NCBI GenBank assembly: GCA_022865345.1
Contig: JALHSU010000168.1
Location: forward strand, 1-33,572
Length of the DNA stretch: 33,572 nt
Origin: Candidatus Zixiibacteriota bacterium
GTDB lineage: Bacteria; Zixibacteria; MSB-5A5; RBG-16-43-9
Direction of reading: 5' to 3'
Each line of letters opens with the position of its first letter. Within the stretch, counting starts at the first letter, position 1. Of this stretch, positions 3,522-20,396 are shown in pieces. Under the pieces are notes generated by a model. That model was given only the letters and a program-made list of their open reading frames with translations, searched no databases and was not told the origin of the DNA. Made by a program: the position numbers and the translations under genes.

Positions 3522-6215
3522 TTAAAAGCCTAAAACCAGCCCAGCTCGCACCATTCTGGGAACATCATAATTATCCGGGTCCTTAACTGCTGATCTATAA
3601 CGCGAGACATATGGTTCGCTGGTTACACCTAAAAGCTCAATTACACCATCCGTATTGGGTTTGCCGGAGGACTCATAAACCGCACGAACATTCTCATTAT
3701 CCGTAAGATTTATGACCTCTAAGTAAAAAGTGCTATTAAACATGCCCATCCTGAAAGCCTTATCTGCTTTTAAATCCAAGCGGTAAGTCCAGGGTTGTCG
3801 TGCGGAGTTCACTTCTCCCAGGGCTTTACCCAGACCCTGCAAGTTGAAGGCGACTGGAGTTCGAGGAGTATAAGGGAATCCGCTTCCCACAGTGAATAAA
3901 ATGTTCAATCCGGCATTTCTGAAAGGCTGAACCCCTTCTTTTTCTCCTGCCCGGATGTCAATGTCCGCTGAGATGGTGTGTCTCTGGTCGAAGTCCAGAT
4001 AAAACTCCGTTTTGGGGAAGACGATATTCAGGCCGGTAGCGCTGGTGATATAATCGTAATACCCTTCTCTCTGATAGGAGCCGGTTCCCTTGGCTTCGGA
4101 AAGAGTATAGGAGATCTTGCCAGAAATGAAGCGTTCCTTTCTTTTCTCTAAGGCGAATTCAACCCCTCTTACTCGGGCATAATCGGAATTAGTATAGATA
4201 ACATATCTGTTCAATCCTGTGCGTAAACGGGTATCAACCAAGTTAGTCATGTTTTTCGAAAAGAGGGTCACATCAAATCTTAAAGTAGGCGAGAAAGTCC
4301 GGGTGAGCCCGGCCTCATAGGCGATAGTCTTTTCTGATCCTAGCCCGGGATCACCTATGATGGCATTACCTGTATTTATGTAATTAATGGCATCTGCCAC
4401 CCCCTCATACAGGTACTGCAATTGCGGCGGTTGAAAGAAATGGCCATAGGTGAAATGAAACAAGGTGTTCTCTGAAACCGGGAAGGCAATACCTAAACGA
4501 GGACTGACCTTGTAATCTAACGGGGTATTTTCAGTTCCTTTGTTCACATCCAACTGGTCGATGAAACGCTCTGCACCAGCCTTTAGCATATCGAAACGAA
4601 GTCCGGCATTTACCACCATACCCTGGAACTCCATCTTGTCCTGAATATAGAATGCCCCAGTTACCGGCTTGTAAGGCTTGCCATGAGAAATGGTCCCGTG
4701 AATATTATAATCCTTGTCATAGTTGTCTAAGAAAGGATTGGCTCTCCAGGGAAGGTCGATTCTGAACCATCGAACCGTGTAAAACCGGGCTTCAAAGCCG
4801 CCTTTAACCTGATGGTATGGATTAACCTGACTGACTATATTGAAGTTGACTCCGGTGTAAAGCGATTGTCTTTTGGAATAGACCCTCTGGCTCACTCCAG
4901 GCAGGTAGTAGATATTGCTTCCATCCTGTCTCTTATTGTCTCCATATGACCAGCCACTGGTGCGGTAATCATATCTTCCATCCGGACCATATAAGGAATC
5001 AGTCCAACTAACGGTATTGATATAATCATTGAAATCACTCCATAGACTATCATCACCTCTTTCTACCTTGGTTACAAAGTAGTTTACCGAAAGGTCGTAG
5101 AATGTATTTTTACTGATATTGTGGGTTAAGGTGAGATAATACATCTGGTTGTTTCTTTCTTGCCTGCTCAGATGATTCAAATTATACCGCCAGAGGATCT
5201 GAAATTCCTTCCTCTTTTCATTGAAGTAGCTGCCCCCAGCTTTTAATTTCATGCTCGGGGTCAGATCATAATTCAGTTTACCAAATCCTGAATATCCCTT
5301 TAGCCAATTTTCAGGTTTCCGTCCTTCCCATCCGGAGCTGGGATTCCAATCGTTTCGATGCGAATACTCAAAAGAGGCAAAATACTTCAACTTTTTCCCA
5401 ATAAGTGGACCCGCCAAGGAGAAATCCGCATTGTTATAGGCGAAACCGTTAGTGCTGCCCATGAACTCATCCGTTCGAAGCTCGAGTTGACCAGTAGTCT
5501 TTATTGCAGATTCCTTTGTAACTGTATTAACCACGCCAGACATGGCCTGTCCATACTCAGCGTTAAATCCACCGGTCAAAACCACGACCTCTGCGATGGC
5601 GTTGTTATTCAATCCTGCACCTATACCTCCGGTTACGATATCCTGAGTATTGAAACCATCGATGAAATAATTTACCTCCCCAGGTCTTCCACCGCGGATT
5701 TGAATTGCCGTGCCTTGACGATTATCTCCAGCTACTACCCCTGCCTGTAGCTGGGCTACAGCTTGAAAACCACGAACCGGCATCTGCTTGATCTCATCTG
5801 AAGTGATGATTTTGGTTGAACCGGTAACGTCCTTTTCGATCAAAGGTCTTTCCGCTACCACCGTGGTAACTTTTCCTAACTCAACGGCGGACACAGTCAG
5901 GTCGAAATTAACCTCGGTAGTCAGGTCAGGAACAACCAGGATCTCTTCCTTGCGGATCGAGGTATATCCAATTACTACTGCTTCGACGCTCTGTTTCCCG
6001 GCAGGGACGTTTATGATGGTGTACCGACCATCCGGCCCTGTGGCGGCTCCTATATTTGTTCCAACTACCCTTATCGACACTCCAGGAAGGGCCTCGCCGC
6101 TCTGCTTGTCTTTGACTATCCCAGTGAGTTTTCCCGTAATCCCTGCTAAACAAAAGGGATAAGTAAAAACCACCAGGAGCACAACTGAAATAGCCAGCTT
6201 GATTAGATTTTTCAT
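3522..6215 (-). CDS. TonB-dependent receptor with N-terminal carboxypeptidase-regulatory-like domain
   Basis: An 897-aa outer-membrane receptor. A signal peptide (residues 1-25, ending near FCLAG) is followed by a carboxypeptidase-regulatory-like domain at about 27-110 ('LTGIVKDKQSGEALPGVSI', 'TGPDGRYTIINVPAGKQ'). The plug domain follows at about 120-235 ('MPVRGFQAVAQLQAGVV', 'IQIRGGRPGEVNYFIDG', 'EVVVLTGGFNAEYGQAMSG'). The remainder is a 22-strand-type beta-barrel rich in aromatic alternating strands, ending in Phe (VRAGLVLGF) as expected for Bam-dependent insertion. This Oar/SusC-like architecture is typical of FCB bacteria. Such receptors import large or scarce ligands using TonB energy; the ligand cannot be read from the sequence. 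It is the first gene of a three-gene operon behind a promoter at about 6510-6539. The immediate ribosome-binding site is GGAGGGAAGTAA before the ATG. No SusD-like lipoprotein is adjacent, which argues against a classical glycan-uptake pair. Confidence 0.9.
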   Translation of the reverse strand: MKNLIKLAISVVLLVVFTYPFCLAGITGKLTGIVKDKQSGEALPGVSIRVVGTNIGAATGPDGRYTIINVPAGKQSVEAVVIGYTSIRKEEILVVPDLTTEVNFDLTVSAVELGKVTTVVAERPLIEKDVTGSTKIITSDEIKQMPVRGFQAVAQLQAGVVAGDNRQGTAIQIRGGRPGEVNYFIDGFNTQDIVTGGIGAGLNNNAIAEVVVLTGGFNAEYGQAMSGVVNTVTKESAIKTTGQLELRTDEFMGSTNGFAYNNADFSLAGPLIGKKLKYFASFEYSHRNDWNPSSGWEGRKPENWLKGYSGFGKLNYDLTPSMKLKAGGSYFNEKRKEFQILWRYNLNHLSRQERNNQMYYLTLTHNISKNTFYDLSVNYFVTKVERGDDSLWSDFNDYINTVSWTDSLYGPDGRYDYRTSGWSYGDNKRQDGSNIYYLPGVSQRVYSKRQSLYTGVNFNIVSQVNPYHQVKGGFEARFYTVRWFRIDLPWRANPFLDNYDKDYNIHGTISHGKPYKPVTGAFYIQDKMEFQGMVVNAGLRFDMLKAGAERFIDQLDVNKGTENTPLDYKVSPRLGIAFPVSENTLFHFTYGHFFQPPQLQYLYEGVADAINYINTGNAIIGDPGLGSEKTIAYEAGLTRTFSPTLRFDVTLFSKNMTNLVDTRLRTGLNRYVIYTNSDYARVRGVEFALEKRKERFISGKISYTLSEAKGTGSYQREGYYDYITSATGLNIVFPKTEFYLDFDQRHTISADIDIRAGEKEGVQPFRNAGLNILFTVGSGFPYTPRTPVAFNLQGLGKALGEVNSARQPWTYRLDLKADKAFRMGMFNSTFYLEVINLTDNENVRAVYESSGKPNTDGVIELLGVTSEPYVSRYRSAVKDPDNYDVPRMVRAGLVLGF

Positions 6216-6283
6216 TTACTTCCCTCCAGATTTTGAGTGGTTTTAGTTTCCTAAAAAGCATTAGCACCTTTATCCCCCGATAT

Positions 6284-6295
6284 CACCTCCTTTGA
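6284..6295 (-). promoter_or_regulatory. Perfect anti-SD match inside the receptor leader
   Basis: On the minus strand the leader holds AAAGGAGGTGAT, complementary to 11-12 nt of the usual 16S rRNA 3' end, about 70 nt upstream of the annotated ATG. That ATG has its own separate ribosome-binding site. The same 11-mer sits in the leader of the subtilase gene. It could be a ribosome standby site or the start of a short leader peptide. Confidence 0.45.
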
Positions 6296-6509
6296 TAAAT
6301 AAAGGTCCTTGTTAGCCTTCGGTAGTATCTTCAGCCTGCTTCACTTTTCAAACCATCCCCCGATGTCGAAAAGCTTCCCTCTCTCCGTGAGAAAACAGTG
6401 GCAATTTGGAGCAGAAGCCTATTGATTTTATAGTTGTTATTTTGGTTTAAGAATACTTGCGCCCAAAGCCTTTCCTAAACCCAACAACTTCTTGGTATGG
6501 AATTATCTT

Positions 6510-8116: not shown

Positions 8117-10135
8117 TTAAGAGCTCTTTTTTTGATCATAAAGCTCTTTAGCCTTTTGCGCGATATGCTCGGCTGAGACCTCGAACTCCTTTATCAGCTC
8201 CCAGGGCTGACCTGACTCACCAAATCTGTCTTTGACTCCGATCATTCCGAATAAAATCGGCTTCTTATAAACCTCTTTTGCTTCCAGAATAGTGGAGGAA
8301 ACATAGTTTCCCAAACCTCCGATCTGATGCTCCTCAGCAGTGACCACAACCCCAGTCTCCGAAGCGGCCCTGATTATGGTTTTTTTGTCAAGGGGCTTCA
8401 GTGTATGCAAATTCACCACCCTGGTTTCGATTCCAAAGTCTTCTTTCAGAATCCAGGCAGCCCTCATCGCTTCCGGAACCTCGGGCCCGCAGGCGATTAT
8501 AGCCAAATCCTCGTTTTCAGATTTATACTGAGAGGAAAGCATGGTCTCAAAAGCATGAATGAACTCCTGTTCCTCTCCTCTATACCTGATTATATTTGCC
8601 TCACCAAAAACAAATGGAGTATCCTCGAAAGTGACTATCGGGGTTGCTTCTCTGGCAAATCTCAGGAACTTGGGTCCTTTGACGTTGAACAAAAGAAATT
8701 CAGTAGCCTTTTTTGTTTCGATCGAATCACAAGGGACTTCCACATGCATATTGGGAAGCCCGCACATCTGGAAAAGGTCTTCCAGAGCTTGATGAGTGGC
8801 TCCGTCCGGGCCTACCGAGACGCCACCGTGTGCGCCGGCTATGAAAACGTTTAAATTGCCGTAGCAGACAGTGGTTCTGAGCTGGTCTAAATTCCTGCCT
8901 GCGGCGAAAACCCCATAGGTGCCGAAAATCGGGAGCTTGCCTTCTTTGGCTAATCCTGCAGCAACTCCGGTTCCGCTCTGCTCAGCTATCCCCATGCTGA
9001 GGAATCTTCTTTTCCTTTCAGGGTGCTTTTCATAGAACTGGCTTATGGCGATTGAGCCGGAGATATCCGCACCCAGGCAGATAATCCTCTCGTCGTCACC
9101 TTTTTCATCCAGAGCCCTGCCAAACCCTAATCTGGTTGGGTCCATCTTCACTTTCATGTTCGGTTGCTTATTCCAGAAATAATCCTTTTTGAACTTGGGC
9201 ATTTTCGCTTCCAGTTCCGTAGAAACTTTAGCCTGGTAATCGTCTGCTTTTTTGAAAAGCCTGTCCCGGTCCAATTTCTTTTGAAGTCCTAATTCCTCTA
9301 AAGCCTTATCCATCTGTTCGCAAACTGGCGATTTTCCGTGCCAGCCTGCTACATTTTCCATAAAGCTTACCCCTTTGCCCTTGATCGTATGCGCAACTAT
9401 GACAGTGGGTTTACCCTTGAGGGTTCTGGCCTTCTCAAAAGCTTCCAAAATCTCCTTCATATTATGCCCATCTATCTCCAGCACATTCCAGTTAAAAGCC
9501 TTATACTTATCCACGATCGGGTCGATATTCATTACCTCTTCAACCCAGCCATCTATCTGCAGGCGGTTCTTATCAATGATGTTGATGAGGTTATCCAATT
9601 TATAATGCCCTGCCTCCATTACTGCTTCCCAGATCTGTCCCTCCTGATGTTCTCCGTCTCCGGTCAAGGCGTAGATATAATAATCTTTGCTATTTAACTT
9701 TGCAGCTAAGGCTATTCCGTTCGCTATGCTCAACCCCTGACCTAAAGAGCCAGTTGAGGCTTCAACTCCCTTGAGTTTTAACCAGTGTGGATGCCCTTGA
9801 AAAGGTGAATAGAGCTTTCTTAAGGTCACCACCTCTTCGATATCGAAGTATCCTGAGATCCCCAGGCTCAGATAGAGCGATGGTGCTTTATGGCCGGTTG
9901 ACCAGATAATCCTGTCCCGGTCCTCCCAGGACGGGTTTTTGGGGTCGTGCCGGGCAACTGAAAGGTATAAAGCTGCGCAGATATCCATAATCGACATAGT
10001 TCCGCCCGAATGGCCTGAGCCAGCCGCACAAAGGGAGATCATGTTATAACCCCTCATCAAATTGGCAGCTTCGATCAGTTCTTCTATGGTGTAGTTTTTT
10101 CTTATACTTCCGGTTTTAGAATCCAAGATCGGCAT
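8117..10135 (-). CDS. tkt: Transketolase
   Basis: A 672-aa full-length transketolase that exchanges two-carbon units between ketose and aldose phosphates in the non-oxidative pentose phosphate pathway, using thiamine diphosphate and a divalent metal. The N-terminal domain (about 1-290) has 'GSGHSGGTMSIMDICAALYL', 'STGSLGQGLSIANGIALAAK' and the ThDP motif 'GDGEHQEGQIWEA' ending with 'NLINIIDKN'. The pyrimidine-binding domain follows at about 345-515 ('SMGIAEQSGTGVAAGLA', with the catalytic Glu), then the C-terminal domain from about 535. The variant resembles the split archaeal/Thermotoga two-subunit type joined in one chain. The start is supported by CAGGAGGTAAA before the ATG. It has its own promoter (10206-10233) and is the first gene before the aminotransferase. 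Confidence 0.95.
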   Translation of the reverse strand: MPILDSKTGSIRKNYTIEELIEAANLMRGYNMISLCAAGSGHSGGTMSIMDICAALYLSVARHDPKNPSWEDRDRIIWSTGHKAPSLYLSLGISGYFDIEEVVTLRKLYSPFQGHPHWLKLKGVEASTGSLGQGLSIANGIALAAKLNSKDYYIYALTGDGEHQEGQIWEAVMEAGHYKLDNLINIIDKNRLQIDGWVEEVMNIDPIVDKYKAFNWNVLEIDGHNMKEILEAFEKARTLKGKPTVIVAHTIKGKGVSFMENVAGWHGKSPVCEQMDKALEELGLQKKLDRDRLFKKADDYQAKVSTELEAKMPKFKKDYFWNKQPNMKVKMDPTRLGFGRALDEKGDDERIICLGADISGSIAISQFYEKHPERKRRFLSMGIAEQSGTGVAAGLAKEGKLPIFGTYGVFAAGRNLDQLRTTVCYGNLNVFIAGAHGGVSVGPDGATHQALEDLFQMCGLPNMHVEVPCDSIETKKATEFLLFNVKGPKFLRFAREATPIVTFEDTPFVFGEANIIRYRGEEQEFIHAFETMLSSQYKSENEDLAIIACGPEVPEAMRAAWILKEDFGIETRVVNLHTLKPLDKKTIIRAASETGVVVTAEEHQIGGLGNYVSSTILEAKEVYKKPILFGMIGVKDRFGESGQPWELIKEFEVSAEHIAQKAKELYDQKKSS

Positions 10136-11331: not shown

Positions 11332-14028
11332 TTAACTCATTTCCAGCCAGTTTTTCCCTATTTTTATATCCACCTTGATCGGGACTTTTAATTTAACCGT
11401 ATTCTCCATCTTATCCCTTACCATCTCCTTAATTTCCTCCAGCTCCGATTTGTGCACCTCAAATACCAACTCATCGTGCACCTGCAGAATCATTTTGGAT
11501 TTTTTTCTTTTGAGGATTTTAGCTATCTCGATCATAACCACTTTGATTAAATCTGCGGCTGAGCCCTGGTGCGGGGTATTGATGGCGACCCTTTCCGCGA
11601 ACTCTCTTTTCTGCCGATTGGGACTTTCAATTTCCGGGATATACCTTCTTCTTCCTAAAAGCGTGGTGACATACCCATCTTTTCTGGCTTTCTCAATTAA
11701 GTTTTCCAGATGCTCCTGAACTTTAGGGTATCTTTTGAAATAGATATCAATAAACATCGAGGCTTCTTTGGGAGTCATATCAGTCTGCTGGGAGAGCCCG
11801 AACGCGCTTACCCCGTAGATTATGGCAAAATTGGCAGTCTTGGCAACTCTTCTCTGCTCAGGAGCAACCTTGTTTATGGGTACACCGAAGACCTCGCTTG
11901 CGGTTCGGGTATGAATATCCTCGCCTTTGAAAAAAGATTCCATCAAAGTTTCATCTTCTGAGAAATGAGCCAGAATCCTCAGCTCGATCTGAGAATAATC
12001 CGCTGATAACAAAAGATAATCCTCGTTCCTGGGGATAAACCCTTTCCTGATCCGGCTGCCGATCTCGGTTTTGATCGGGATATTCTGTAAATTAGGCTCG
12101 GAGGAGGAAAGCCTTCCAGTTGCAGTCACTGTTTGGTTGAATGAGGTGTGCACTCTGCCGGTCTTTTTGTTGATCAGAGCAGGGAGAGCGTCGATATAGG
12201 TGGATTTCAATTTGAAAAGCTGGCGGTACTCTAAAAGCTTCTGAGGAAGTGGGTGAACCCTGGCTAATTTTTCCAGGACTCCGAAATCAGTAGAATCGAG
12301 GGTTTTTTTAGCTGTTTTTCTAAGGGGGGTCAGTCTTAAATCCTCAAATAAGACCTTGCTCAATTGCTGAGGAGAATTGATGTTGAACTCTTTGCCAGCC
12401 AATTTATAGATCTGCCTGGCAAGTTTTGATAACTCGAGTTCCATCTGTTCGGAAAGCTCTTTCAGGTAATCTACGTCAATTGAAATCCCTGTCATCTCCA
12501 TCTCAGCCAAAACCCGTATCAGAGGCAGCTCCACCTCATAGAAAAGGTTATCCAGAAGAGCCTGCTTTAGCTTAGGCTCCAGCACTTCTTTCAGCCTTAG
12601 AGTAAAATCTGCATCCTCGCAGGAATATCTGGAAGCAGATTTAATCGGAACCTGAGCAAAACTTATCTGTTTTTTCCCGGACCCGATCAAATCCGAGATC
12701 GGCATCATCTTGTAATCTAAATACTCTAAGGCTAAATTGGAGAGGCTGTTCTGTCTTCCGGAGGGATTCAGAAGATAGGAGGCGATCATAGTATCGAAAC
12801 CTATACCTTTAAGCTCGACTCCCTCATTTTTCAGAATCTCTAAATCGAACTTCAAGTTCTGACCGATTTTCGTTATAGATTCGTTTTCTAAAACAGGCTT
12901 GAACTCTTCGAGCAGCAGTTCGATCTTTAGATTTTTACCCTCCGTATGTCTGAGCGGAATGTAAAATGCCTCCTCTTTTTTCAGAGCTATAGATATTCCC
13001 ACTAACTGCGCCACTATCGGGTTTATGGAGGAGGTTTCAGTATCCACTGCGAACTCGCCTTTCTCAACAATCCTGTCAAGAAGCTTCTTGAACTCCTCTT
13101 CATCCTCCACGGTCTTGTATTTGACCTTCTCCAGCTTTTCCCCAGAAGTGACCTCCTGGAGGAATTTGCTGAACTCCAATTCCTTGAAAAGCTCCTTTAA
13201 CTTCGGAAGGTCAAACTCACTTCTGGAAAGCTGTTTTAGATCCAGTTCGATGGGTACATCAGTCTCGATGGTTACTAACTTCTTAGAGAGTCTAGCCAAG
13301 TCTGCATGCTCTTTCAAATTCCGGGAGACATTTTTTCTTTTGACTTTATCTGCATTAGCTAAGACTTTTTCCAGATCTCCGAATTGATGAATTAATTCCA
13401 CAGCGGTTTTTTCACCCACTCCCGGAATCCCTGGAACGTTATCCGAGGCATCCCCCATTAATCCCAGAAGGTCTATAACTTTTTCCGGAGGGATTCCATA
13501 TTTTTCTTTTACCTTTTCCTGGTCATAGACCTCTATCTCCTCTCCGCTTTTCCTCGGATTCAAAACCTTAATATTTTCGTCCACCAACTGTAAAAAGTCC
13601 TTGTCTCCGGTTACCAGAATCACCTCTAAACCTTTATTTTCGGCTTTACGAGCTAAAGTGCCCATCAGATCATCCGCTTCAAATCCCTCCATCTCCAGGA
13701 CGGGAATATTCATCCCCTTAACCAACTCCATTATTCGAGGAAGCTGGGAGACCATCTCATCCGGCATTTTGGCACGGGTAGATTTATATTCTTTGTAGAT
13801 TTCATGCCTGAAAGTTGGGGCTTTAGTATCAAAGACCACCCCGATATAGTCAGGCTCCTCCTCTTTCAGGATTTTAAAAAGGGAATTGGCAAATCCAAAA
13901 GCGGCTGAGGTATTCTCACCTTTGGAATTAATCAGAGGATTTCGGATGAAGGCAAAATAGGATCGATAAGCTAAAGCCGACCCGTCGATTAAGAAAAGGC
14001 GTTTCTTCTTTTTTCCGCTTTCGGACAT
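11332..14028 (-). CDS. polA: DNA polymerase I
   Basis: An 898-aa three-domain polymerase for Okazaki-fragment processing and repair. The 5'-3' exonuclease/flap domain is at about 8-300 ('LIDGSALAYRSYFAF', 'EADDLMGTLAR', 'DASDNVPGIPGVGEKTA'). The 3'-5' exonuclease domain is at about 310-500 and keeps the proofreading residues: DTET in 'FAVDTETSSINP', Asn/Asp in 'GQNLKFDLEIL', and Tyr/Asp in 'SRYSCEDADFTLRL'. The polymerase domain has motif A with D677 in 'SADYSQIELRILAHFS', motif B in 'RRVAKTANFAIIYGVSAFG' and motif C with D852 in 'QVHDELVFE'. All three activities therefore look intact, unlike many Pol I proteins that lost proofreading. Its promoter at 14047-14075 gives a very short leader. 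Confidence 0.96.
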   Translation of the reverse strand: MSESGKKKKRLFLIDGSALAYRSYFAFIRNPLINSKGENTSAAFGFANSLFKILKEEEPDYIGVVFDTKAPTFRHEIYKEYKSTRAKMPDEMVSQLPRIMELVKGMNIPVLEMEGFEADDLMGTLARKAENKGLEVILVTGDKDFLQLVDENIKVLNPRKSGEEIEVYDQEKVKEKYGIPPEKVIDLLGLMGDASDNVPGIPGVGEKTAVELIHQFGDLEKVLANADKVKRKNVSRNLKEHADLARLSKKLVTIETDVPIELDLKQLSRSEFDLPKLKELFKELEFSKFLQEVTSGEKLEKVKYKTVEDEEEFKKLLDRIVEKGEFAVDTETSSINPIVAQLVGISIALKKEEAFYIPLRHTEGKNLKIELLLEEFKPVLENESITKIGQNLKFDLEILKNEGVELKGIGFDTMIASYLLNPSGRQNSLSNLALEYLDYKMMPISDLIGSGKKQISFAQVPIKSASRYSCEDADFTLRLKEVLEPKLKQALLDNLFYEVELPLIRVLAEMEMTGISIDVDYLKELSEQMELELSKLARQIYKLAGKEFNINSPQQLSKVLFEDLRLTPLRKTAKKTLDSTDFGVLEKLARVHPLPQKLLEYRQLFKLKSTYIDALPALINKKTGRVHTSFNQTVTATGRLSSSEPNLQNIPIKTEIGSRIRKGFIPRNEDYLLLSADYSQIELRILAHFSEDETLMESFFKGEDIHTRTASEVFGVPINKVAPEQRRVAKTANFAIIYGVSAFGLSQQTDMTPKEASMFIDIYFKRYPKVQEHLENLIEKARKDGYVTTLLGRRRYIPEIESPNRQKREFAERVAINTPHQGSAADLIKVVMIEIAKILKRKKSKMILQVHDELVFEVHKSELEEIKEMVRDKMENTVKLKVPIKVDIKIGKNWLEMS

Positions 14029-14046
14029 AATTGACCTGCAGGAGTT

Positions 14047-14075
14047 ATGATACTATTAAATTTGTTTCAGGTCAA
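14047..14075 (-). promoter_or_regulatory. Predicted sigma70-type promoter of polA
   Basis: Minus strand TTGACC (14070-14075), 17-nt spacer, TATCAT (14047-14052). The predicted start site is only about a dozen bases before the polA ATG, so the leader would be nearly absent. Confidence 0.6.
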
Positions 14076-14140
14076 TAAGTTTGTGGGAATTTCCCCTTTG
14101 ATTTACAAGAAGTTAGCCCCTCTCTACAGGCTTTTGTTTC

Positions 14141-14266
14141 AATTTTGTTTCAATTGGGGTTGGGTTATTATGGGTTTTCTTGGGTTATGATGGGTCTTGA
14201 GGAATCCAGGTAAACTCTTGACTATCTATCTAATACGCTGAAAAACAAGGGGTTCCCACGCCCCCT
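14141..14266. repeat. 125-bp direct repeat A with G-quadruplex-like decamer array
   Basis: Shares with repeat B (16804-16928) an opening AATTTTGTTTCAATTGG, a G-rich decamer array, then GAGG, GCTGAAA and a closing GGGTTCCC(A/G)CGCCCCC. GGG triplets at 14162, 14172, 14182 and 14192 are exactly 10 nt apart, with 7-nt loops TTATTAT, TTTTCTT and TTATGAT; a fifth G-run lies just before. Together A and B bracket the subtilase gene. Confidence 0.75.
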
Positions 14267-14275
14267 AAATTTTAC

Positions 14276-14304
14276 TTGACAAAAATGGAAACCGGTTTTA
14301 TTTT
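14276..14304 (+). promoter_or_regulatory. Predicted sigma70-type promoter of the subtilase gene
   Basis: TTGACA (14276-14281), 17-nt spacer, TATTTT (14299-14304). A consensus -35 box and ideal spacing. It lies immediately after direct repeat A and predicts a leader of roughly 250 nt. Confidence 0.6.
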
Positions 14305-14459
14305 TACTTCAGAATATACTTCGATTTTCATTCACGCTCACTTGTTATTCTTTTTTGAAGCTTTAAAAAGTTAGCCTTCTAAACCGATTAAAGGAGGCGA
14401 GGAAGCGGACATAGACCATTTCTTATAAAGGGGAACTGGTCTTATTAACTTTTTCATGA

Positions 14460-14470
14460 AGGAGGTGATT
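14460..14470 (+). promoter_or_regulatory. Perfect anti-SD match in the subtilase leader
   Basis: AAGGAGGTGAT lies about 88 nt before the annotated ATG, which has its own site (TTGGAGGTTTGAT). The motif is complementary to the usual 16S 3' end and recurs in the TonB-receptor leader. A following TTG codon could open an 8-9 codon leader peptide, but its spacing is poor. Confidence 0.4.
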
Positions 14471-14557
14471 TTTATAGAGAATCGCTTGAAGTATTTCAGT
14501 TTTCTTTTTCAGTGAACAGATTCTCCCAGAAAAGTTTAATTTTTTTGGAGGTTTGAT

Positions 14558-16351
14558 ATGAAAAAGTTGTTCTTCTGGTTGCTGTTGTCAGGAGTAGTGC
14601 TGGCAATGCTGATGGGCGGTTGTTCCAAGCAAACCCAAAAGATCACGGGACCCCAAGCACAACTGGCTCCTTTGTTCAACCAAACTCCGGGGGCAAAATA
14701 TATTCCTGGTTCCTATATCGTGGTGTTTAAGGAATCAGTTGCAGATGTAGACAAAGACGTGGATGAGATCGGTCAGCGGTATACTCTCAAAGCGGATTTT
14801 CGCTACAAGCATGCTCTCAAAGGATTTGCAGGGAAGCTTTCCCCTGCCGTGGTCGAGGCATTACGGAACGATCCGCGCATCGCCTACATAGAGCAGGATC
14901 AGATAGCGCATATGGATGCTACCCAGACTAATCCTACCTGGGGACTGGATCGGATCGATCAGCGGGCCCTTCCTCTGGACAACTCCTATACCTACAACCA
15001 AACCGGTGCTGGAGTTGATGTGTATTGTCTCGATACCGGCATCCGATTCACGCACGTGGACTTTGGCGGCCGTGCGGTTACCGGTTATGACGCCATCACA
15101 ACGGGCGGTACAGCGGCGGATGGCAATGGCCACGGTACGCACACTGCGGGCACGATTGGCGGGGCGACCTATGGCGTTGCTAAGGCTGTTAGCCTGATCG
15201 CCGTCCGCGTGCTGGACGACACTGGCCACGGCACGTACGCTCAGGTGATTGCCGGGGTCGATTGGGTAACAGGAGATCACACCACTACTCCTGCGGTCGC
15301 CAACATGTCCCTCGGCGGGCCCCTGGATGCGGCGCTCGACCAGGCCGTCAGGAATTCGATTGCCGATGGGGTGACTTATTGCGTGTCCGCCGGAAACTTG
15401 TCAGCCGATGCCTCGACTCAGTCGCCTGCTGACGTCGGTGAGGCGCTCACCGTGGGCGCGACCAACAACTCCGATGCGTTCGCCTATTTCTCGAACTACG
15501 GAAGCATCGTTGACGTTCAGGCTCCCGGGGTCAACGTCACGTCGGACTATTACACCTCGGACATTGCAACAACGACCATGTCAGGCACGTCGATGGCCGC
15601 TCCGCACGTGGCGGGCGCAGCCGCTCTGTACCTCGAAGCGAACCCCACTGCGACGCCTGCCTCGGTTCACAACGCCATAATCGGCAATGCCACGACCGGC
15701 GTGATTACCAGTCTTCCCATGGGGACGGCCAACAGGCTTCTCTACTCGATCATCAGCACGACGCCCCCGGTTGTACCCGCGCCTCCTGTACTGAGCTCTC
15801 CCGCGAACGGCGCAACCGGCGTGACGCTTCCTGTCGCTTTCTCGTGGAATGCGTCTTTTGGCGCGACATCCTACCGGGTCCAGGTCTCCACCAGCTCGGC
15901 ATTCACTACGACCGTGTACGATCACGCTGGCATCAGCTCGACCTCGGTGAGCGTTTCCGGGCTGGCCCCCAGCACGCTGTATTACTGGCGCGTGAACGCG
16001 ACCAACGCGGCCGGCACGAGCAACTGGTCTACGGTCCGGAGCTTCACGACAGGCACAGGCATGGGTCCTGCGGCGCCCACGCTCGTGTCCCCGGCCAACG
16101 GTGCGAACAACGTGCCGAGATCTCCGACGCTTACGTGGAATGCGTCTTCTGGCGCGACGTCCTATCGCGTCCAGGTGTGTTGGGACCAGTCGTTTAATAC
16201 GAACGTGTATGATCGATCCGGCATCACGTCGACCTCGACGGTTGTCACCGGGCTTGCTGGCAAGACGCTCCATTACTGGCGCGTGAACGCGACCAACGCG
16301 AACGGTACGAGCAAATGGTCCACGACCTGGTCGTTCACAACCAGGAAATGA
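14558..16351 (+). CDS. S8 (subtilisin/proteinase K-like) peptidase lipoprotein with two Fn3-like repeats
   Basis: A 597-aa secreted serine protease. Residues 1-22 are a lipoprotein-type signal ending in MLMGGC. Residues about 48-120 are an inhibitor I9 propeptide ('GSYIVVFKESV', 'KGFAGKLSPAVVEALRNDP', 'IAYIEQDQ'). The catalytic domain runs from about 125 to 395 and has Asp159 ('YCLDTGIRFTH'), His192 ('GNGHGTHTAGTIGG'), oxyanion Asn280 ('SAGN') and Ser345 ('MSGTSMAAPHVAGAAALYL'). It most resembles the aqualysin/proteinase K branch. Two tandem Fn3-like domains of about 97 residues close the protein and are nearly identical over long stretches of DNA. Base composition changes sharply inside the gene: 24 of 60 bases are G/C at 14701-14760 against 40 of 60 at 15301-15360. 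This suggests a chimeric or recently acquired gene. It is followed by a strong terminator and has no operon partners. Confidence 0.93.
   Translation: MKKLFFWLLLSGVVLAMLMGGCSKQTQKITGPQAQLAPLFNQTPGAKYIPGSYIVVFKESVADVDKDVDEIGQRYTLKADFRYKHALKGFAGKLSPAVVEALRNDPRIAYIEQDQIAHMDATQTNPTWGLDRIDQRALPLDNSYTYNQTGAGVDVYCLDTGIRFTHVDFGGRAVTGYDAITTGGTAADGNGHGTHTAGTIGGATYGVAKAVSLIAVRVLDDTGHGTYAQVIAGVDWVTGDHTTTPAVANMSLGGPLDAALDQAVRNSIADGVTYCVSAGNLSADASTQSPADVGEALTVGATNNSDAFAYFSNYGSIVDVQAPGVNVTSDYYTSDIATTTMSGTSMAAPHVAGAAALYLEANPTATPASVHNAIIGNATTGVITSLPMGTANRLLYSIISTTPPVVPAPPVLSSPANGATGVTLPVAFSWNASFGATSYRVQVSTSSAFTTTVYDHAGISSTSVSVSGLAPSTLYYWRVNATNAAGTSNWSTVRSFTTGTGMGPAAPTLVSPANGANNVPRSPTLTWNASSGATSYRVQVCWDQSFNTNVYDRSGITSTSTVVTGLAGKTLHYWRVNATNANGTSKWSTTWSFTTRK
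15845..16337 (+). repeat. Tandem 291-bp (97-codon) duplication inside the subtilase gene
   Basis: TGGAATGCGTCTTNTGGCGC occurs at 15845 and again at 16136, 291 bp apart. A second matched block, ATTACTGGCGCGTGAACGCG, recurs at the same offset. The two units encode the two Fn3-like domains, and the high DNA identity points to a recent in-frame duplication. Confidence 0.75.
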
Positions 16352-16422
16352 CGATGGACTGAATTGTTGCGGCTTGCCTGTTTGAACGGTTCGTTCGGTA
16401 GCTGAAACGAGGAAATTGCAAG

Positions 16423-16452
16423 AGGCGTCCCGTACGAGGGACGCCTTCTTTA
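16423..16452 (+). terminator. Intrinsic terminator after the subtilase gene
   Basis: AGGCGTCCC (16423-16431) and GGGACGCCT (16438-16446) form a perfect 9-bp stem with a 6-nt loop, followed by TCTTTATT. It is 71 nt after the stop. Confidence 0.85.
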
Positions 16453-16474
16453 TTCTCACTCGCTTCTCAAGATC

Positions 16475-16501
16475 GTAGAGACGTATCGAGATATGTCTCT
16501 G
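16475..16501. repeat. GTAG-type intergenic hairpin
   Basis: GTAGAGACGTATCGAGATAT followed by GTCTCTGC: AGAGACGTAT pairs with ATATGTCTCT with one wobble or mismatch. It has the same form as the first unit at 19561. Confidence 0.55.
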
Positions 16502-16527
16502 CTGTCAATAGCTAAAAAAACCTATCT

Positions 16528-16599
16528 TTTCCGGTAACTCACTGGTAGAGTGAGCGTCTGTTAACCGTCAAGTTGCAGGTTTGAGCTCTGCCCGAGGAG
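16528..16599 (+). pseudogene. Degenerate tRNA-Asn (anticodon GTT)
   Basis: The 72-nt stretch aligns end to end with a bacterial tRNA-Asn. The D arm is intact (ACTC/GAGT around ACTGGTA), the anticodon loop is CTGTTAA with GTT at its centre, the T stem is GCAGG/TCTGC, and the 3' acceptor strand is CCGAGGA plus discriminator G. The 5' acceptor strand TTTCCGG no longer pairs cleanly (one mismatch, two wobbles). The anticodon stem AGCGT/CCGTC has mismatches at both ends, and the T loop reads TTTGAGC instead of TTCGA-type. No CCA is encoded. These changes make a functional tRNA unlikely. A relic tRNA beside a foreign-looking gene is a classic sign of an integration site, but no integrase is in view. 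Confidence 0.7.
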
Positions 16600-16769
16600 T
16601 TTTCACTTTTTTCGCGTAATTCAATGTTCGCTACTCTATTGTACCTGACGTTTTCCCAACCTGAAAATCTTCTCACACCCTGTGCCTGCTGAAATGCGAC
16701 CGTTAGTAAGGTTTCCCCATAAAATCCCGTAGAGATTCTCTCAGGCAGATGTAATTTTGCACAAATAGG

Positions 16770-16794
16770 GATAGGGGGACGCTACCCCCCTATC
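16770..16794. repeat. G-rich intergenic hairpin
   Basis: GATAGGGGG (16770-16778) pairs with CCCCCTATC (16786-16794), a perfect 9-bp stem with a 7-nt loop, ten bases before direct repeat B. It lacks a clean T-tract, so a terminator role is uncertain. Confidence 0.5.
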
Positions 16795-16803
16795 TCCTGT
16801 TTA

Positions 16804-16928
16804 AATTTTGTTTCAATTGGAGTTGGGTTTTCTTGGGTTATGATGGGTTATTATGGGTATCGAGGTAATTGGCTAATTTGTTGTTAATCTTGTTAATAGG
16901 CTGAAACACAAGGGTTCCCGCGCCCCCT
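16804..16928. repeat. 125-bp direct repeat B with G-quadruplex-like decamer array
   Basis: Second copy of the repeat at 14141-14266, in the same orientation. GGG triplets at 16825, 16835, 16845 and 16855 keep the exact 10-nt period. The three loops are those of copy A in rotated order (TTTTCTT, TTATGAT, TTATTAT), so the internal array has shifted by one decamer. Confidence 0.75.
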
Positions 16929-16960
16929 TTTTTGTTGCAGATCAATAAATTCATATTGGC

Positions 16961-17024
16961 GTAGGGGTTCAAAATTTGGTACCCCTGCAATTTGTTCTTG
17001 GAGAGAGGCATGGCGATCCATGCC
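16961..17024. repeat. Two GTAG-type intergenic hairpins
   Basis: GTAGGGGT...ACCCCTGC (16961-16988) and GGCATGG-CGAT-CCATGCC (17007-17024) are adjacent palindromes of the kind found at five other sites in the window. Confidence 0.55.
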
Positions 17025-17111
17025 CATGCATTAATAAATTTCAAAAAGTAGAATCCTCAGCTCAGACGGGGGTAATATTTTTTTAATTTAATATAAAAAG
17101 TTTGGAACAAA

Positions 17112-17129
17112 TATGTAAGTACTTACGTA
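17112..17129. promoter_or_regulatory. Palindromic operator, probable MarR autoregulatory site
   Basis: TATGTAAGTACTTACGTA is an 18-bp palindrome with one mismatched pair; its core GTAAGTACTTAC (17115-17126) is perfect. It lies 41 nt before the ATG of a MarR-family gene, between a TTGGAA box (17102-17107) and possible -10 sequences (TAATAT at 17128, TATAGT at 17135). Size and position are typical of MarR operators. Confidence 0.6.
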
Positions 17130-17169
17130 ATATTTATAGTTATTAAGGAGAGTAAAAAGGTACCTACAT

Positions 17170-18135
17170 ATGGACCTCTTAAGACAGCTTGGGCCCTTAG
17201 CTATCGCCAGCAGGTTAAGGCGTTTGACAGAGTGGCTCTATAAGGATGGTGCCCGCATTTACCAGGAGCTATCTTTGGATTTTGAGCCGCGCTGGTTTCC
17301 ACTTTTTTATCTTTTGAAGGAATCGGGTGAAATATCAGTTACCCATGCAGCTCAGGCTTTAGGGATGACCCATCCAGCTATCAATCAGATTGCCGGAGAG
17401 ATGTCACGCCGAGGGTTCGCGGAATCGATTAGTGATAAAAAAGATAAACGCAAAAGGCTTCTGCGACTCACCCAAAAGGGCAGAAAAGCCCTATCCTCGC
17501 TTGAGCCGGTTTGGAAAGATTTCAAATCTGCGGCAAGTGACCTTTTGAGTGAAGCGGGTGATGATTTTCTAGCAACAGTTGAAAGATTAGAGGACGCCTT
17601 AAAGGAAAAGGGGATGTACGAAAGAATAACTCAACGAATCAAAAATCGCCAGCTCAAGAGAATTCAAATCCTAAATTACCAGCCACAGTTTAAAAAATAC
17701 TTCAAGTCACTCAACTATGAATGGCTCAGGGAATACTTTAAAGTGGAAAAAGAGGATAAAAAATTACTTTCCAGCCCTTACGAAAGAATAATCAAGCCCG
17801 GAGGGTTTGTTCTCTTTGCCCGCCTGAATGGTAAAATTGTTGGCACCACTGCATTAATCAAACATGATAGACATACCTATGAGCTGACCAAGATGGCGGT
17901 TAAAAGAACTGCTCAAAGACAGCAGGTAGGACGTAAACTTGCACTTGCCGCAATTGAAAAAGCGAAAAACTCAGGTGCCAAGAGAGTAATTTTACTCACC
18001 AGTCCAAGATTAACTGCAGCTTATAATCTCTATCGCTCTTTAGGCTTTATCGAATTATCTGGAGATCAGCCTTGGGCAACCCTCTACCACCGTGGAGGGA
18101 TTCCCTTGAGCTTGGATTTGAAAAATAAACCATAA
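17170..18135 (+). CDS. MarR-family regulator fused to GNAT acetyltransferase
   Basis: A 321-aa two-domain protein. Residues 1-150 form a MarR winged helix-turn-helix: 'GEISVTHAAQALGMTHPAIN' is the DNA-reading helix region, and 'DKKDKRKRLLRLTQKG' is the beta wing. Residues about 165-310 form a GNAT N-acetyltransferase fold, with acetyl-CoA motif A near 'RQQVGRKLALAAIEKAK' and the C-terminal 'AAYNLYRSLGFIEL'. This MarR-GNAT architecture is known in other bacteria, but the acetylated substrate is generally not. The likely translation signal is AAAAGG nine bases before the ATG. A perfect palindrome just upstream implies self-regulation. The S41 peptidase gene starts 19 nt downstream, so both are probably controlled together. 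Confidence 0.88.
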   Translation: MDLLRQLGPLAIASRLRRLTEWLYKDGARIYQELSLDFEPRWFPLFYLLKESGEISVTHAAQALGMTHPAINQIAGEMSRRGFAESISDKKDKRKRLLRLTQKGRKALSSLEPVWKDFKSAASDLLSEAGDDFLATVERLEDALKEKGMYERITQRIKNRQLKRIQILNYQPQFKKYFKSLNYEWLREYFKVEKEDKKLLSSPYERIIKPGGFVLFARLNGKIVGTTALIKHDRHTYELTKMAVKRTAQRQQVGRKLALAAIEKAKNSGAKRVILLTSPRLTAAYNLYRSLGFIELSGDQPWATLYHRGGIPLSLDLKNKP

Positions 18136-18154
18136 AACTTAAAAAGGAGGTGTT

Positions 18155-19552
18155 ATGTCCCAAGTAAAGTTTGAAGCTGAGAGTAAAATGCAGGGCTTAT
18201 TGTTTAGAGCGGGATTAATTCTTTTTTTTCTAATACTATTGACACTGTTTGGTTTGTTCCTGAAATCTGTACAGGCACAGCCACCCTCTCAAAAGCCACC
18301 AGACAGGTTAATTGACGCACAAATGCAGTTGGACGTAATCGACAGCGTGTCCCGGGCATTGAATGAAGTCTATGTTTTCCCGGAGGTGGCAAAGGAGATG
18401 GAGAAATACCTCCACAAACAGTACGATCAGGGAAAATATAAAAACATAACCAGCTTAAACCAGTTCTGTCAAAAGCTGACCGAGGATCTCCAAGAAATAA
18501 GTAAGGATAAGCATCTTGGGGTCAGGTTCGCATCTGACGAGATGATTGCTAAGTTTGAAGGAGATACCCTCACAGATGAGGAGAAAAAAAGAGACCTTGA
18601 GCAAAGACGCAGGGATAACTTTTGTTTCAAGGAGATAAAACTTCTGGAGGGGAATATCGGGTACCTCGATCTCCGCTGTTTTTCGGAAGCTACAGATGCG
18701 GGATTTACTGCCATTGCCGCTATGAATTTCTTAGCCTATGCAAATGCCATCATTTTCGACCTGCGTCAGAACGGAGGCGGTTCGCCCAGCATGATCCAGC
18801 TTATCTCCAGCTATCTTCTCAAGGAGCCGACTCATCTCAACAGCTTCTACATCCGCAAGTCCGATTCCATCCATCAGTTCTGGACCCAGGCATACGTTGA
18901 AGGTCCCCGCTTGACCGATGTGGATGTTTATGTCCTTACCAGCAGTTACACTTTTTCTGGAGCAGAGGAGTTCACCTACAATCTCAAGAACTTAAAAAGA
19001 GGGACCATAATCGGGGAGACCACCGGCGGCGGAGCCCATCCCGTCGATTTTAAAATTTTTCACTATCTTAATGTAGGTATGAGCCTGCCCTTTGGACGGG
19101 CAATCAATCCTATCACTGGCACCAACTGGGAAGGGACGGGGATCACTCCTAACATTGAAGTACCTCAAGAGAAGGCACTGGATGTAGCTCATCTCAAAGC
19201 ACTGGAGAAATTGCTTGAAAAAGTCAAAGACCCAAAGAGAGAGGCTGAACTTAAATGGGCAATAGAGGGTAAAAAAGTATTGCTCAATCCGGTTAAAATC
19301 GAGGAGAAAAATCTGAAAATATATGCAGGCCAGTATGGTCCCAGAAAAATCTTGTTTGAAAATGGAGAATTATATTATCAGCGTGAAAACAGACCTAAAT
19401 ACAAACTCATATCTATGGGTGACCACTGGTTTATGCTGGATGGCCTGGATTATTTCCGGATTCAATTCGTAGTGGATGAAAAGGGCAAAGCCACAGAGCT
19501 GATTGGTCATTATAACAGCGGACCTGCGGATAGTAATAAGCGCGGTAAATAA
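18155..19552 (+). CDS. S41 family peptidase (IRBP/tail-specific protease-like), membrane-targeted
   Basis: A 465-aa serine protease. Residues about 18-42 are a hydrophobic signal or anchor segment ending SVQAQ. An IRBP-type N-terminal helical domain covers about 55-150 ('SVSRALNEVYVFPEVAKEME'). The S41 core at about 155-345 has 'GNIGYLDLRCFSEA', 'IIFDLRQNGGGSPSMIQLIS', the nucleophile region 'LTSSYTFSGAEEFTYNLK' (Ser268 predicted) and 'GETTGGGAHPVDF'. A C-terminal domain of about 90 residues ('YAGQYGPRKILFENGELYY') resembles the small beta domain found at the end of many secreted peptidases. No PDZ domain is evident. It probably acts on peptides in the periplasm. AAGGAGG lies just before the ATG, and the gene is 19 nt after the MarR-GNAT gene. 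Confidence 0.88.
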   Translation: MSQVKFEAESKMQGLLFRAGLILFFLILLTLFGLFLKSVQAQPPSQKPPDRLIDAQMQLDVIDSVSRALNEVYVFPEVAKEMEKYLHKQYDQGKYKNITSLNQFCQKLTEDLQEISKDKHLGVRFASDEMIAKFEGDTLTDEEKKRDLEQRRRDNFCFKEIKLLEGNIGYLDLRCFSEATDAGFTAIAAMNFLAYANAIIFDLRQNGGGSPSMIQLISSYLLKEPTHLNSFYIRKSDSIHQFWTQAYVEGPRLTDVDVYVLTSSYTFSGAEEFTYNLKNLKRGTIIGETTGGGAHPVDFKIFHYLNVGMSLPFGRAINPITGTNWEGTGITPNIEVPQEKALDVAHLKALEKLLEKVKDPKREAELKWAIEGKKVLLNPVKIEEKNLKIYAGQYGPRKILFENGELYYQRENRPKYKLISMGDHWFMLDGLDYFRIQFVVDEKGKATELIGHYNSGPADSNKRGK

Positions 19553-19560
19553 AAAATTCT

Positions 19561-19683
19561 GTAGAGACGCATCGCATGCGTCTCCACGCCTTTGGAGTGC
19601 ATCGTCCGTGTCGATGCCGAAGCAGGAGCGAACCTATGTGTTCGCTCCGATTTATTCGGACAGACATAGGGGTCTGCCCCTAC
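19561..19683. repeat. Cluster of four GTAG-type intergenic hairpins
   Basis: Four consecutive palindromes: GAGACGCATCGCATGCGTCTC, GCATCG...CGATGC, GGAGCGAAC...GTTCGCTCC, and GGACAGAC...GTCTGCCCC. The cluster opens with GTAG and closes with CTAC. It starts 9 nt after the S41 stop codon. Confidence 0.7.
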
Positions 19684-19726
19684 AAAAAATCAAAAGCCCC
19701 GGTTCTTTTTTTAAAGCCAGGGCTTT
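19684..19726 (-). terminator. Intrinsic terminator of the perR-side transcript
   Basis: On the minus strand AAAGCCCTGG and CCGGGGCTTT pair over 10 bp (one G-T wobble) around a 14-nt A/T-rich loop, followed by TGATTTTTTG. It lies just after the small ORF that ends at 19747. Confidence 0.75.
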
Positions 19727-19746
19727 ACCCTACCTCATCGATCCCT

Positions 19747-19926
19747 TTATAGCGTTTCGTCTCCTCTTCCTTTCTCCTCCCGTATATCCAGGATCTCTAA
19801 CTCCTCGTTTAAGATCTTATTCACCACTTTGATGAACTGCTGCAGGTTCAGCTTCTGGAGTTTGTAGGGATGCCAGCAGAGTTTCTGCGAGATCGGTTCG
19901 ATCTCCTTCTTCTTGGATTTGGACAT
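19747..19926 (-). CDS. Small basic protein of unknown function
   Basis: A 59-aa open frame starting MSKSKKKEIEPISQK and ending EEKGRGDETL, with a Lys-rich head, a central segment with a possible helix ('LQQFIKVVNKILNEELEI') and a charged tail. I do not recognise it. A longer GTG start two codons upstream exists, but GAGGGG is best spaced for the ATG at 19926. Reasons to think it is real: a good ribosome-binding site, a terminator 20 nt after its stop, and its place directly after perR on the same strand. A Fur/PerR-box-like sequence lies in the 71-nt gap before it. It has no membrane segment. Confidence 0.5.
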   Translation of the reverse strand: MSKSKKKEIEPISQKLCWHPYKLQKLNLQQFIKVVNKILNEELEILDIREEKGRGDETL

Positions 19927-19961
19927 CCTCACCCCTCAAAATAAAAAGCCCATTTAAAATA

Positions 19962-19980
19962 ATAACAATAACCATTATCA
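19962..19980 (-). promoter_or_regulatory. Fur/PerR-box-like sequence upstream of the small ORF
   Basis: The minus strand reads GATAATGGTTATTGTTATT, matching 14 of 19 positions of the classical Fur box. The overlapping TGATAATGGTTATTG matches 10 of 14 fixed positions of the Bacillus PerR box. It lies between perR and the small ORF. The region is A/T rich, so a chance match is possible. Confidence 0.35.
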
Positions 19981-19997
19981 TATACGAATAAAAAAAA

Positions 19998-20396
19998 CTA
20001 TTGATTAAGTTTTAAACAATTTAAACAAACGCCGTGAAATGCAACCTCCACCTTTTCGATTCTGAACTTTACTTTTTTCTGAGCTTCAGCCTTCAGGTTT
20101 TTTTCCAGATCCAGAAAAAGGTCGTAGATCTTCCCGCATTTTTTGCAGATGAAATGCTGGTGAGAAGAGGTATCCGCATCGAAATGGTCAAAGGGCGTGC
20201 CAAACTGAAGCTTCCTTATGGCTCCCTTCTGGTGAAGATTATTCAAATTGCGGTAGACTGTGCCCAGGGAAAGTTTGGGGATTTTTTTCTTGGCCTGGAA
20301 GTAGATCCAGTCTGCAGTCGGATGGATTTTGGTTCCTTTTAAGGTCTTTAGGATTTCTTGTCTTTGCCGGCTAAATCTTTCGAATTTTTCTTCCAT
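19998..20396 (-). CDS. perR: Fur-family peroxide-sensing repressor, PerR type
   Basis: A 132-aa Fur-family metalloregulator. The N-terminal winged helix includes 'HPTADWIYFQAKK' and 'LSLGTVYRNLNNLHQKG'; the C-terminal dimerisation domain carries two CxxC pairs for structural zinc (C84/C87, C124/C127). The candidate regulatory-metal ligands H25, D73, H79, H81 and D92 match Bacillus PerR H37, D85, H91, H93 and D104 with a constant offset of 12, and so do the four cysteines. Asp at the last ligand position, where Fur has Glu, is the residue linked to peroxide sensing. The start is supported by CAGGAGCTT before the ATG. It overlaps the end of nadD by 49 nt in another frame, an unusually long overlap that implies coupled expression. 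Confidence 0.85.
   Translation of the reverse strand: MEEKFERFSRQRQEILKTLKGTKIHPTADWIYFQAKKKIPKLSLGTVYRNLNNLHQKGAIRKLQFGTPFDHFDADTSSHQHFICKKCGKIYDLFLDLEKNLKAEAQKKVKFRIEKVEVAFHGVCLNCLKLNQ

Follow-up and report, generated by a model that had tools for sequence, protein, structure and literature searches.

The window, by which we mean the whole stretch of 33,572 nucleotides analysed here, is an entire contig (G000:C168) of a 2.86-Mb genome that is 96.6% complete and assembled in 275 contigs. Between polA and nadD it carries a 5.6-kb insertion containing, in order, one copy of a dispersed att-like repeat, an S8 peptidase gene, a relic of a tRNA-Asn gene, a second copy of the repeat and two further genes (Table 1).

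Table 1. Features of the polA–nadD interval, in window coordinates.
Position	Strand	Feature	Evidence
14061–14078	+	Left member of 18-bp imperfect direct repeat	16/18 match; native sequence upstream of polA
14080–19681		Interval absent from G001, filled by another gene in G002	Synteny
14135–14266	+	Left copy of dispersed att-like repeat, part B	77% identical to 16798–16928
14270–14576	+	5' region and first codons of S8 gene, homologous to native C214 S8 gene	BLAST match to C214:5302–4998, 84% over 311 columns, E 3e-88
14558–16351	+	S8 peptidase gene with I9 propeptide and Fn3-like domains	Pfam; body foreign-looking from about 14577
16422–16447	+	Terminator-like hairpin of S8 gene	Scan: 10 pairs, then T-rich tail; 80 bases before relic
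16506–16527	+	5' leader remnant of tRNA-Asn, CAATAGCTAAAA..., common to C214 locus	BLAST, alignment with C214, promoter scans
16528–16599	+	tRNA-Asn(GTT) pseudogene	Rfam tRNA, 31.7 bits; 9/72 bases changed vs intact gene
16651–16928	+	Right copy of att-like repeat, parts A and B	Relatives of the repeat end in tRNA-His 3' ends
16931–16948	+	Right member of 18-bp imperfect direct repeat	16/18 match
17170–19552	+	MarR-GNAT fusion gene and S41 peptidase gene, second part of insertion	Pfam; G003:C36, 75% DNA identity

Homology with the congener G002 ends at position 14079 and returns at 19624, and G002 itself has a different gene at this site, of the FG-GAP/VCBS-repeat type (family assigned by eye). 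The same flanks are about 285 bp apart in the congener G001, and in SM1_73, a member of the same order, about 200 bp separate polA from a nadD-like gene. Mis-assembly appears unlikely, judging from the finding of both flanks in the same order in G001 and G002. The pair of genes in the second part of the insertion is present elsewhere in G003, and no MarR-GNAT gene was found in G001 or G002. This gene (17170–18135) encodes a MarR-type regulator fused to a GNAT acetyltransferase and is patchily distributed across the class. The interval may be a genomic island: it is absent from G001 and has a GC-rich S8 gene and the 18-bp repeat (16/18), but no integrase gene was found in the block, and the right flank of the 18-bp repeat is non-native. 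The S8 gene looks foreign, in agreement with the sequence-only reading of this DNA: its GC3 is 0.68, and a search of 133 genomes of the class yielded a single close relative (72% identity), in G035 of another family, at a locus with a GC content of 56%.

Structure and decay of the relic tRNA

A cmscan search against Rfam places the tRNA family RF00005 at exactly 16528–16599 of the forward strand, over the full model (1–71), with 31.7 bits against a gathering score of 29 (E = 0.0056). With E values of up to 1 allowed, no other RNA family matches the window, and ARAGORN calls no tRNA anywhere in it, the relic included. An intact tRNA-Asn(GTT) gene, the sole intact one found in the genome, lies on another contig (C214:2975–3046) and scores 67.5 bits. 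Besides the relic, the genome has 43 tRNA matches above the cut-off, scoring 48.5–76.1 bits. Apart from C214 and the window it has no strong tRNA-Asn-like place, the anticodons of the 13 matches with the lowest scores having been read in part. Contig C178 carries a probable selenocysteine tRNA with a TCA anticodon (L047:3409–3503; ARAGORN).

Relative to the intact 72-nt gene the relic has nine changes (C2T, C3T, T4C, A15C, G30T, C41T, T42C, C55T and C60T), seven of them in stems. The acceptor stem now has two G-U pairs and one C.A mismatch, the anticodon stem T.C and A.C mismatches plus one G-U pair, and the T stem one G-U pair, while the T loop has changed from TTCGAGC to TTTGAGC, with alteration of its conserved C. 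The D stem still has its four pairs, and the anticodon is still GTT. Standard pairs fall from 21 in the intact tRNA to 18 and Watson–Crick pairs from 21 to 14, the cloverleaf energy goes from −27.9 to −11.8 kcal/mol, and the predicted best fold is not the cloverleaf. With a recognisable tRNA, a damaged structure and an intact paralogue (31.7 vs 67.5 bits; 18 of 21 pairs), the relic is a full-length tRNA-Asn(GTT)-derived pseudogene. The sequence-only reading had described the same picture, a full-length tRNA-Asn(GTT) with intact D arm and anticodon, broken pairs in the acceptor and anticodon stems and an altered T loop, and its view of a decayed duplicate is confirmed by the combination it had asked for, an intact tRNA-Asn elsewhere and a low covariance-model score here.

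The passing Rfam score and the intact D stem and anticodon would also suit a functional or regulatory tRNA-like RNA, which the earlier reading placed second and which we regard as extremely unlikely. In a neutral simulation, in which nine changes of the same kinds were placed at random in 5000 runs, the mean number of standard pairs was 18.04 (sd 1.30). The 18 pairs observed equal this neutral mean, which argues for an absence of constraint on pairing, and no compensatory pair was found. The changed T-loop C and the non-cloverleaf fold also speak against function, as do the expression signals. The C214 tRNA-Asn is preceded by a promoter, TTGACA-16-TATATT, and similar promoter-like sites are readable 5' of the intact tRNA-Asn genes of relatives, whereas a promoter scan found no such site upstream on the strand of the relic, which has the strong terminator-like hairpin of the S8 gene upstream. 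The relic copy is apparently silent, to judge by these signals. Finally, no orthologue of the relic was found at this site in the congeners G001 and G002. The intact tRNA-Asn is identical at 72 of 72 positions in G000, G001, G002 and G003, which are four genomes of one family and two genera.

Relationship to the native tRNA-Asn locus

A BLAST comparison of window positions 14001–20000 with the C214 locus yielded two matches. One is the 5' region of the S8 gene and the other, at 16506–16599, joins the relic and its leader to the tRNA-Asn of C214 and its leader, with 84% identity (E 7e-23, far beyond chance); the leader part of the match is short and A-rich. At the native locus a 605-residue open frame for an S8-type peptidase, so called from its similarity to the window S8 protein (E 3e-19), lies directly upstream of the tRNA-Asn in the same orientation. 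The order and orientation of S8 gene and tRNA-Asn are alike in the window and in C214, and both ends of the native block are present in the window. In G003, of the same family, the tRNA-Asn adjoins the same htpX-like gene (named by eye) without an S8 gene.

Among 20 genomes searched, the sequence of the 5' region occurs at two places in G000 and at one each in G001 and G002, in the latter two always at the S8–tRNA-Asn locus. With just these two places in the genome, the match cannot be put down to a dispersed leader. In a tree of the 5' region the window copy falls together with C214 (82% bootstrap), and its branch is three times longer (0.185 vs 0.061). The divergence of the relic tRNA, 12.5%, is near the 17% of the noncoding 5' region.

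The body of the window S8 gene has only 23% identity to that of the native C214 gene and differs in GC3 (0.68 vs 0.52). Three parts of the native locus are lacking from the window copy: the peptidase body, the flank 3' of it and the promoter of the tRNA. As the matches are limited to the two ends, the window lacks the segment that runs from the start of the native peptidase to about 22 bases short of the tRNA, and the foreign-looking GC-rich S8 gene, with its own terminator, occupies its place. The absence of the native gene body between the two ends, together with the difference between the S8 bodies, makes the block a mosaic. Because the whole tRNA, about 22 bases of its leader and the 5' region of its native neighbour were duplicated together, the tRNA is best regarded as a passenger in a copied block.

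We considered whether a foreign or phage tRNA-Asn could have arrived with the S8 gene, never having been a copy of the family's own gene. The foreign look of the S8 gene and the presence of tRNA-Asn in many phages would fit such an origin, but identity to the family's tRNA-Asn reaches 92% over 74 nt, compared with 73–80% for other members of the order and with partial matches of 76–85% for phages. The tRNA query has no significant DNA match in G035, the genome with the closest S8 gene. No phage or distant genome was found to have a tRNA-Asn with the nine changes of the relic, and an outside origin is most improbable.

Flanking repeats and other tRNA loci

The block begins right after the left copy of the att-like repeat and is followed by the longer right copy. 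Relatives too have copies of it, and this genome has more, with several each on C156, C204 and C95 or among them; most copies are intergenic. Those on C156 (L189) lie at 24, 2304, 6211–6495, 9059, 13585 and 13891, and further copies at 8382 and 11564 of L190 and at 2742, 3696 and 6925 of L191. The repeat, 130–280 bp long and often in one orientation, spaces single genes at kilobase intervals and gives the appearance of a cassette-type array built from the ends of old integrative elements. Three copies (G000:C204, G002:C46 and G001:C142) end in the 3' end of a tRNA, GGGTTCAAATCCCGTCACCCA or a near variant; the tail of the C204 copy has 24 exact bases in common with the 3' end of the genome's tRNA-His, and in G001:C142 a distance of 1.4 kb separates a tRNA-His-like sequence from a 3' copy. 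Since this layout is that of a distal attachment site, the repeat would most simply be the arm region of elements integrating in tRNA-His. No integrase gene was found beside a repeat copy, none of the tyrosine integrases of the genome has a clear part B copy adjoining it, no part B was seen at the native tRNA-Asn loci, and viral contigs yielded no exact match to it. In C271 a tyrosine integrase gene is followed by a tRNA-like 3' half, CTCATAACCCGAAGGTCGTTGGTTCAAATCCAACCCCCGC (L203, about 2000–2160), which is probably an attachment site in a tRNA-Met.

The 18-bp direct repeat encloses both att-like copies and the block. Equal matches were obtained in none of about 3000 background windows, a result that is suggestive only, as the pair was picked after being seen. 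Direct repeats of 16–20 bp and mosaic cassettes are usual in islands (PMC6917214).

At the intact tRNA-Asn itself, large serine recombinase genes end at the 3' end of the tRNA in this genome (L039:1466–3046, G000:C214) and in G002 (L041:1840–3473, G002:C11). In G001 a glyoxalase-family (VOC) gene follows the intact tRNA-Asn, and in G002 the VOC gene follows a tRNA-Asn-like remnant on a different contig (L046, about 2540–2640, G002:C79). From the recombinase genes at its 3' end and the displaced VOC gene, the tRNA-Asn would seem to be still in use as an insertion site by serine-recombinase elements. The VOC gene, taken as a marker, did not lead to the far end of the C214 element, the genome holding only a 39% homologue.

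Copies derived from tRNA-Asn were also seen at L032:1660–1745 (G001:C15), L034:1660–1745 (G002:C11), L033:1590–1720 (G003:C152) and L046:2540–2630 (G002:C79), in two genera; in all of them the anticodon arm is swapped at the same point for a palindrome such as TCCCGCATGTTTGCGGGA, and in G003:C152 two copies stand in tandem about 80 nt apart. One could imagine that such pseudogenes of this family, the relic and the palindrome copies of G001, G002 and G003, are kept as alternative landing sites for serine recombinases, sparing the single functional tRNA-Asn. We hold this to be very unlikely. Of the serine-recombinase elements that sit at an intact tRNA-Asn in G000:C214 and in G002:C11, no trace is found at the relic.

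Origin and significance of the relic

Integration scars duplicate the 3' part of a tRNA. The sequence-only reading had proposed an integration scar here, and a classic form of it would have a tRNA-Asn-integrating element leave a displaced tRNA-Asn copy beside its cargo gene. Serine-recombinase genes do occupy tRNA-Asn in C214 and in G002:C11, the adjoining gene is foreign-looking, and the six bases 3' of the relic (TTTTCA) equal the flank of the unoccupied tRNA-Asn of G001. However, the scar interpretation fails its main test, because what was duplicated is not a 3' end but a full-length tRNA, 5' leader included, together with the 5' region of its native neighbour. Moreover, no serine-recombinase remnant adjoins the relic, the sole matches being to the tRNA itself, and the S8 gene is found 5' rather than 3' of the relic. 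We therefore consider an attachment-site scar very unlikely. In favour of the proposal, besides the decay and the foreign-looking gene, the region is an insertion with mobile-element-like repeats; the relic itself is not the scar, nor is it the att-like feature of the locus, as the relatives of the flanking repeats carry tRNA-His and not tRNA-Asn ends.

The whole tRNA with its leader and the native S8 5' region (84%), which is otherwise confined to native loci, lead us to interpret 14270 to about 16605 as a relocated mosaic copy of the genus-native S8 peptidase–tRNA-Asn block, with the relic as its right-hand end, and we hold this interpretation with considerable confidence. In the proposed course of events, the block would have been copied to its new place between polA and nadD, and, before or after this, its peptidase body and tRNA promoter would have been replaced by the unrelated GC-rich S8 gene. 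Once without its promoter, and with an intact gene still present on C214, the tRNA copy would have been dispensable and free to mutate. Its source may have been a close unsampled relative rather than G000. Integrative elements may have moved the block, but not via the relic; more tentatively, these could have been elements with tRNA-His-type attachment ends, since two arm-like repeat copies and the 18-bp direct repeat bracket the block. No intermediate state between the copying of the block and the exchange of the peptidase was found. The copied-block account explains why there is a relic, why it lies beside a foreign-looking gene, why its promoter is missing and how fast it has changed.

The tRNA pseudogenes that arise in bacteria from duplicated segments resemble the relic in being full-length, diverged and promoterless copies beside an intact paralogue; the difference is that here the protein gene of the block has given way to an unrelated gene from the same family. 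A literature search found no close account of bacterial tRNA pseudogenes of this kind. Islands integrated in tRNA genes with a displaced tRNA 3' fragment, as outlined by Williams (2002; cited in PMC6917214), share with this locus a foreign-looking gene, direct repeats and insertion by a conserved gene, and the flanking repeats have relatives ending in tRNA-His 3' fragments; unlike in the islands so outlined, the relic is not a 3' fragment and has a 5' leader.

The relic is a fossil from an ordinary kind of genome change. An attachment-site scar is not the only possible source of a decayed tRNA beside a foreign gene, and here it was the comparison of the flanks that exposed a relocated block. 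The att-like repeat, with tRNA-His ends in some of its copies, borders genes in Zixibacteria and may help to map gene gain in these uncultured bacteria.
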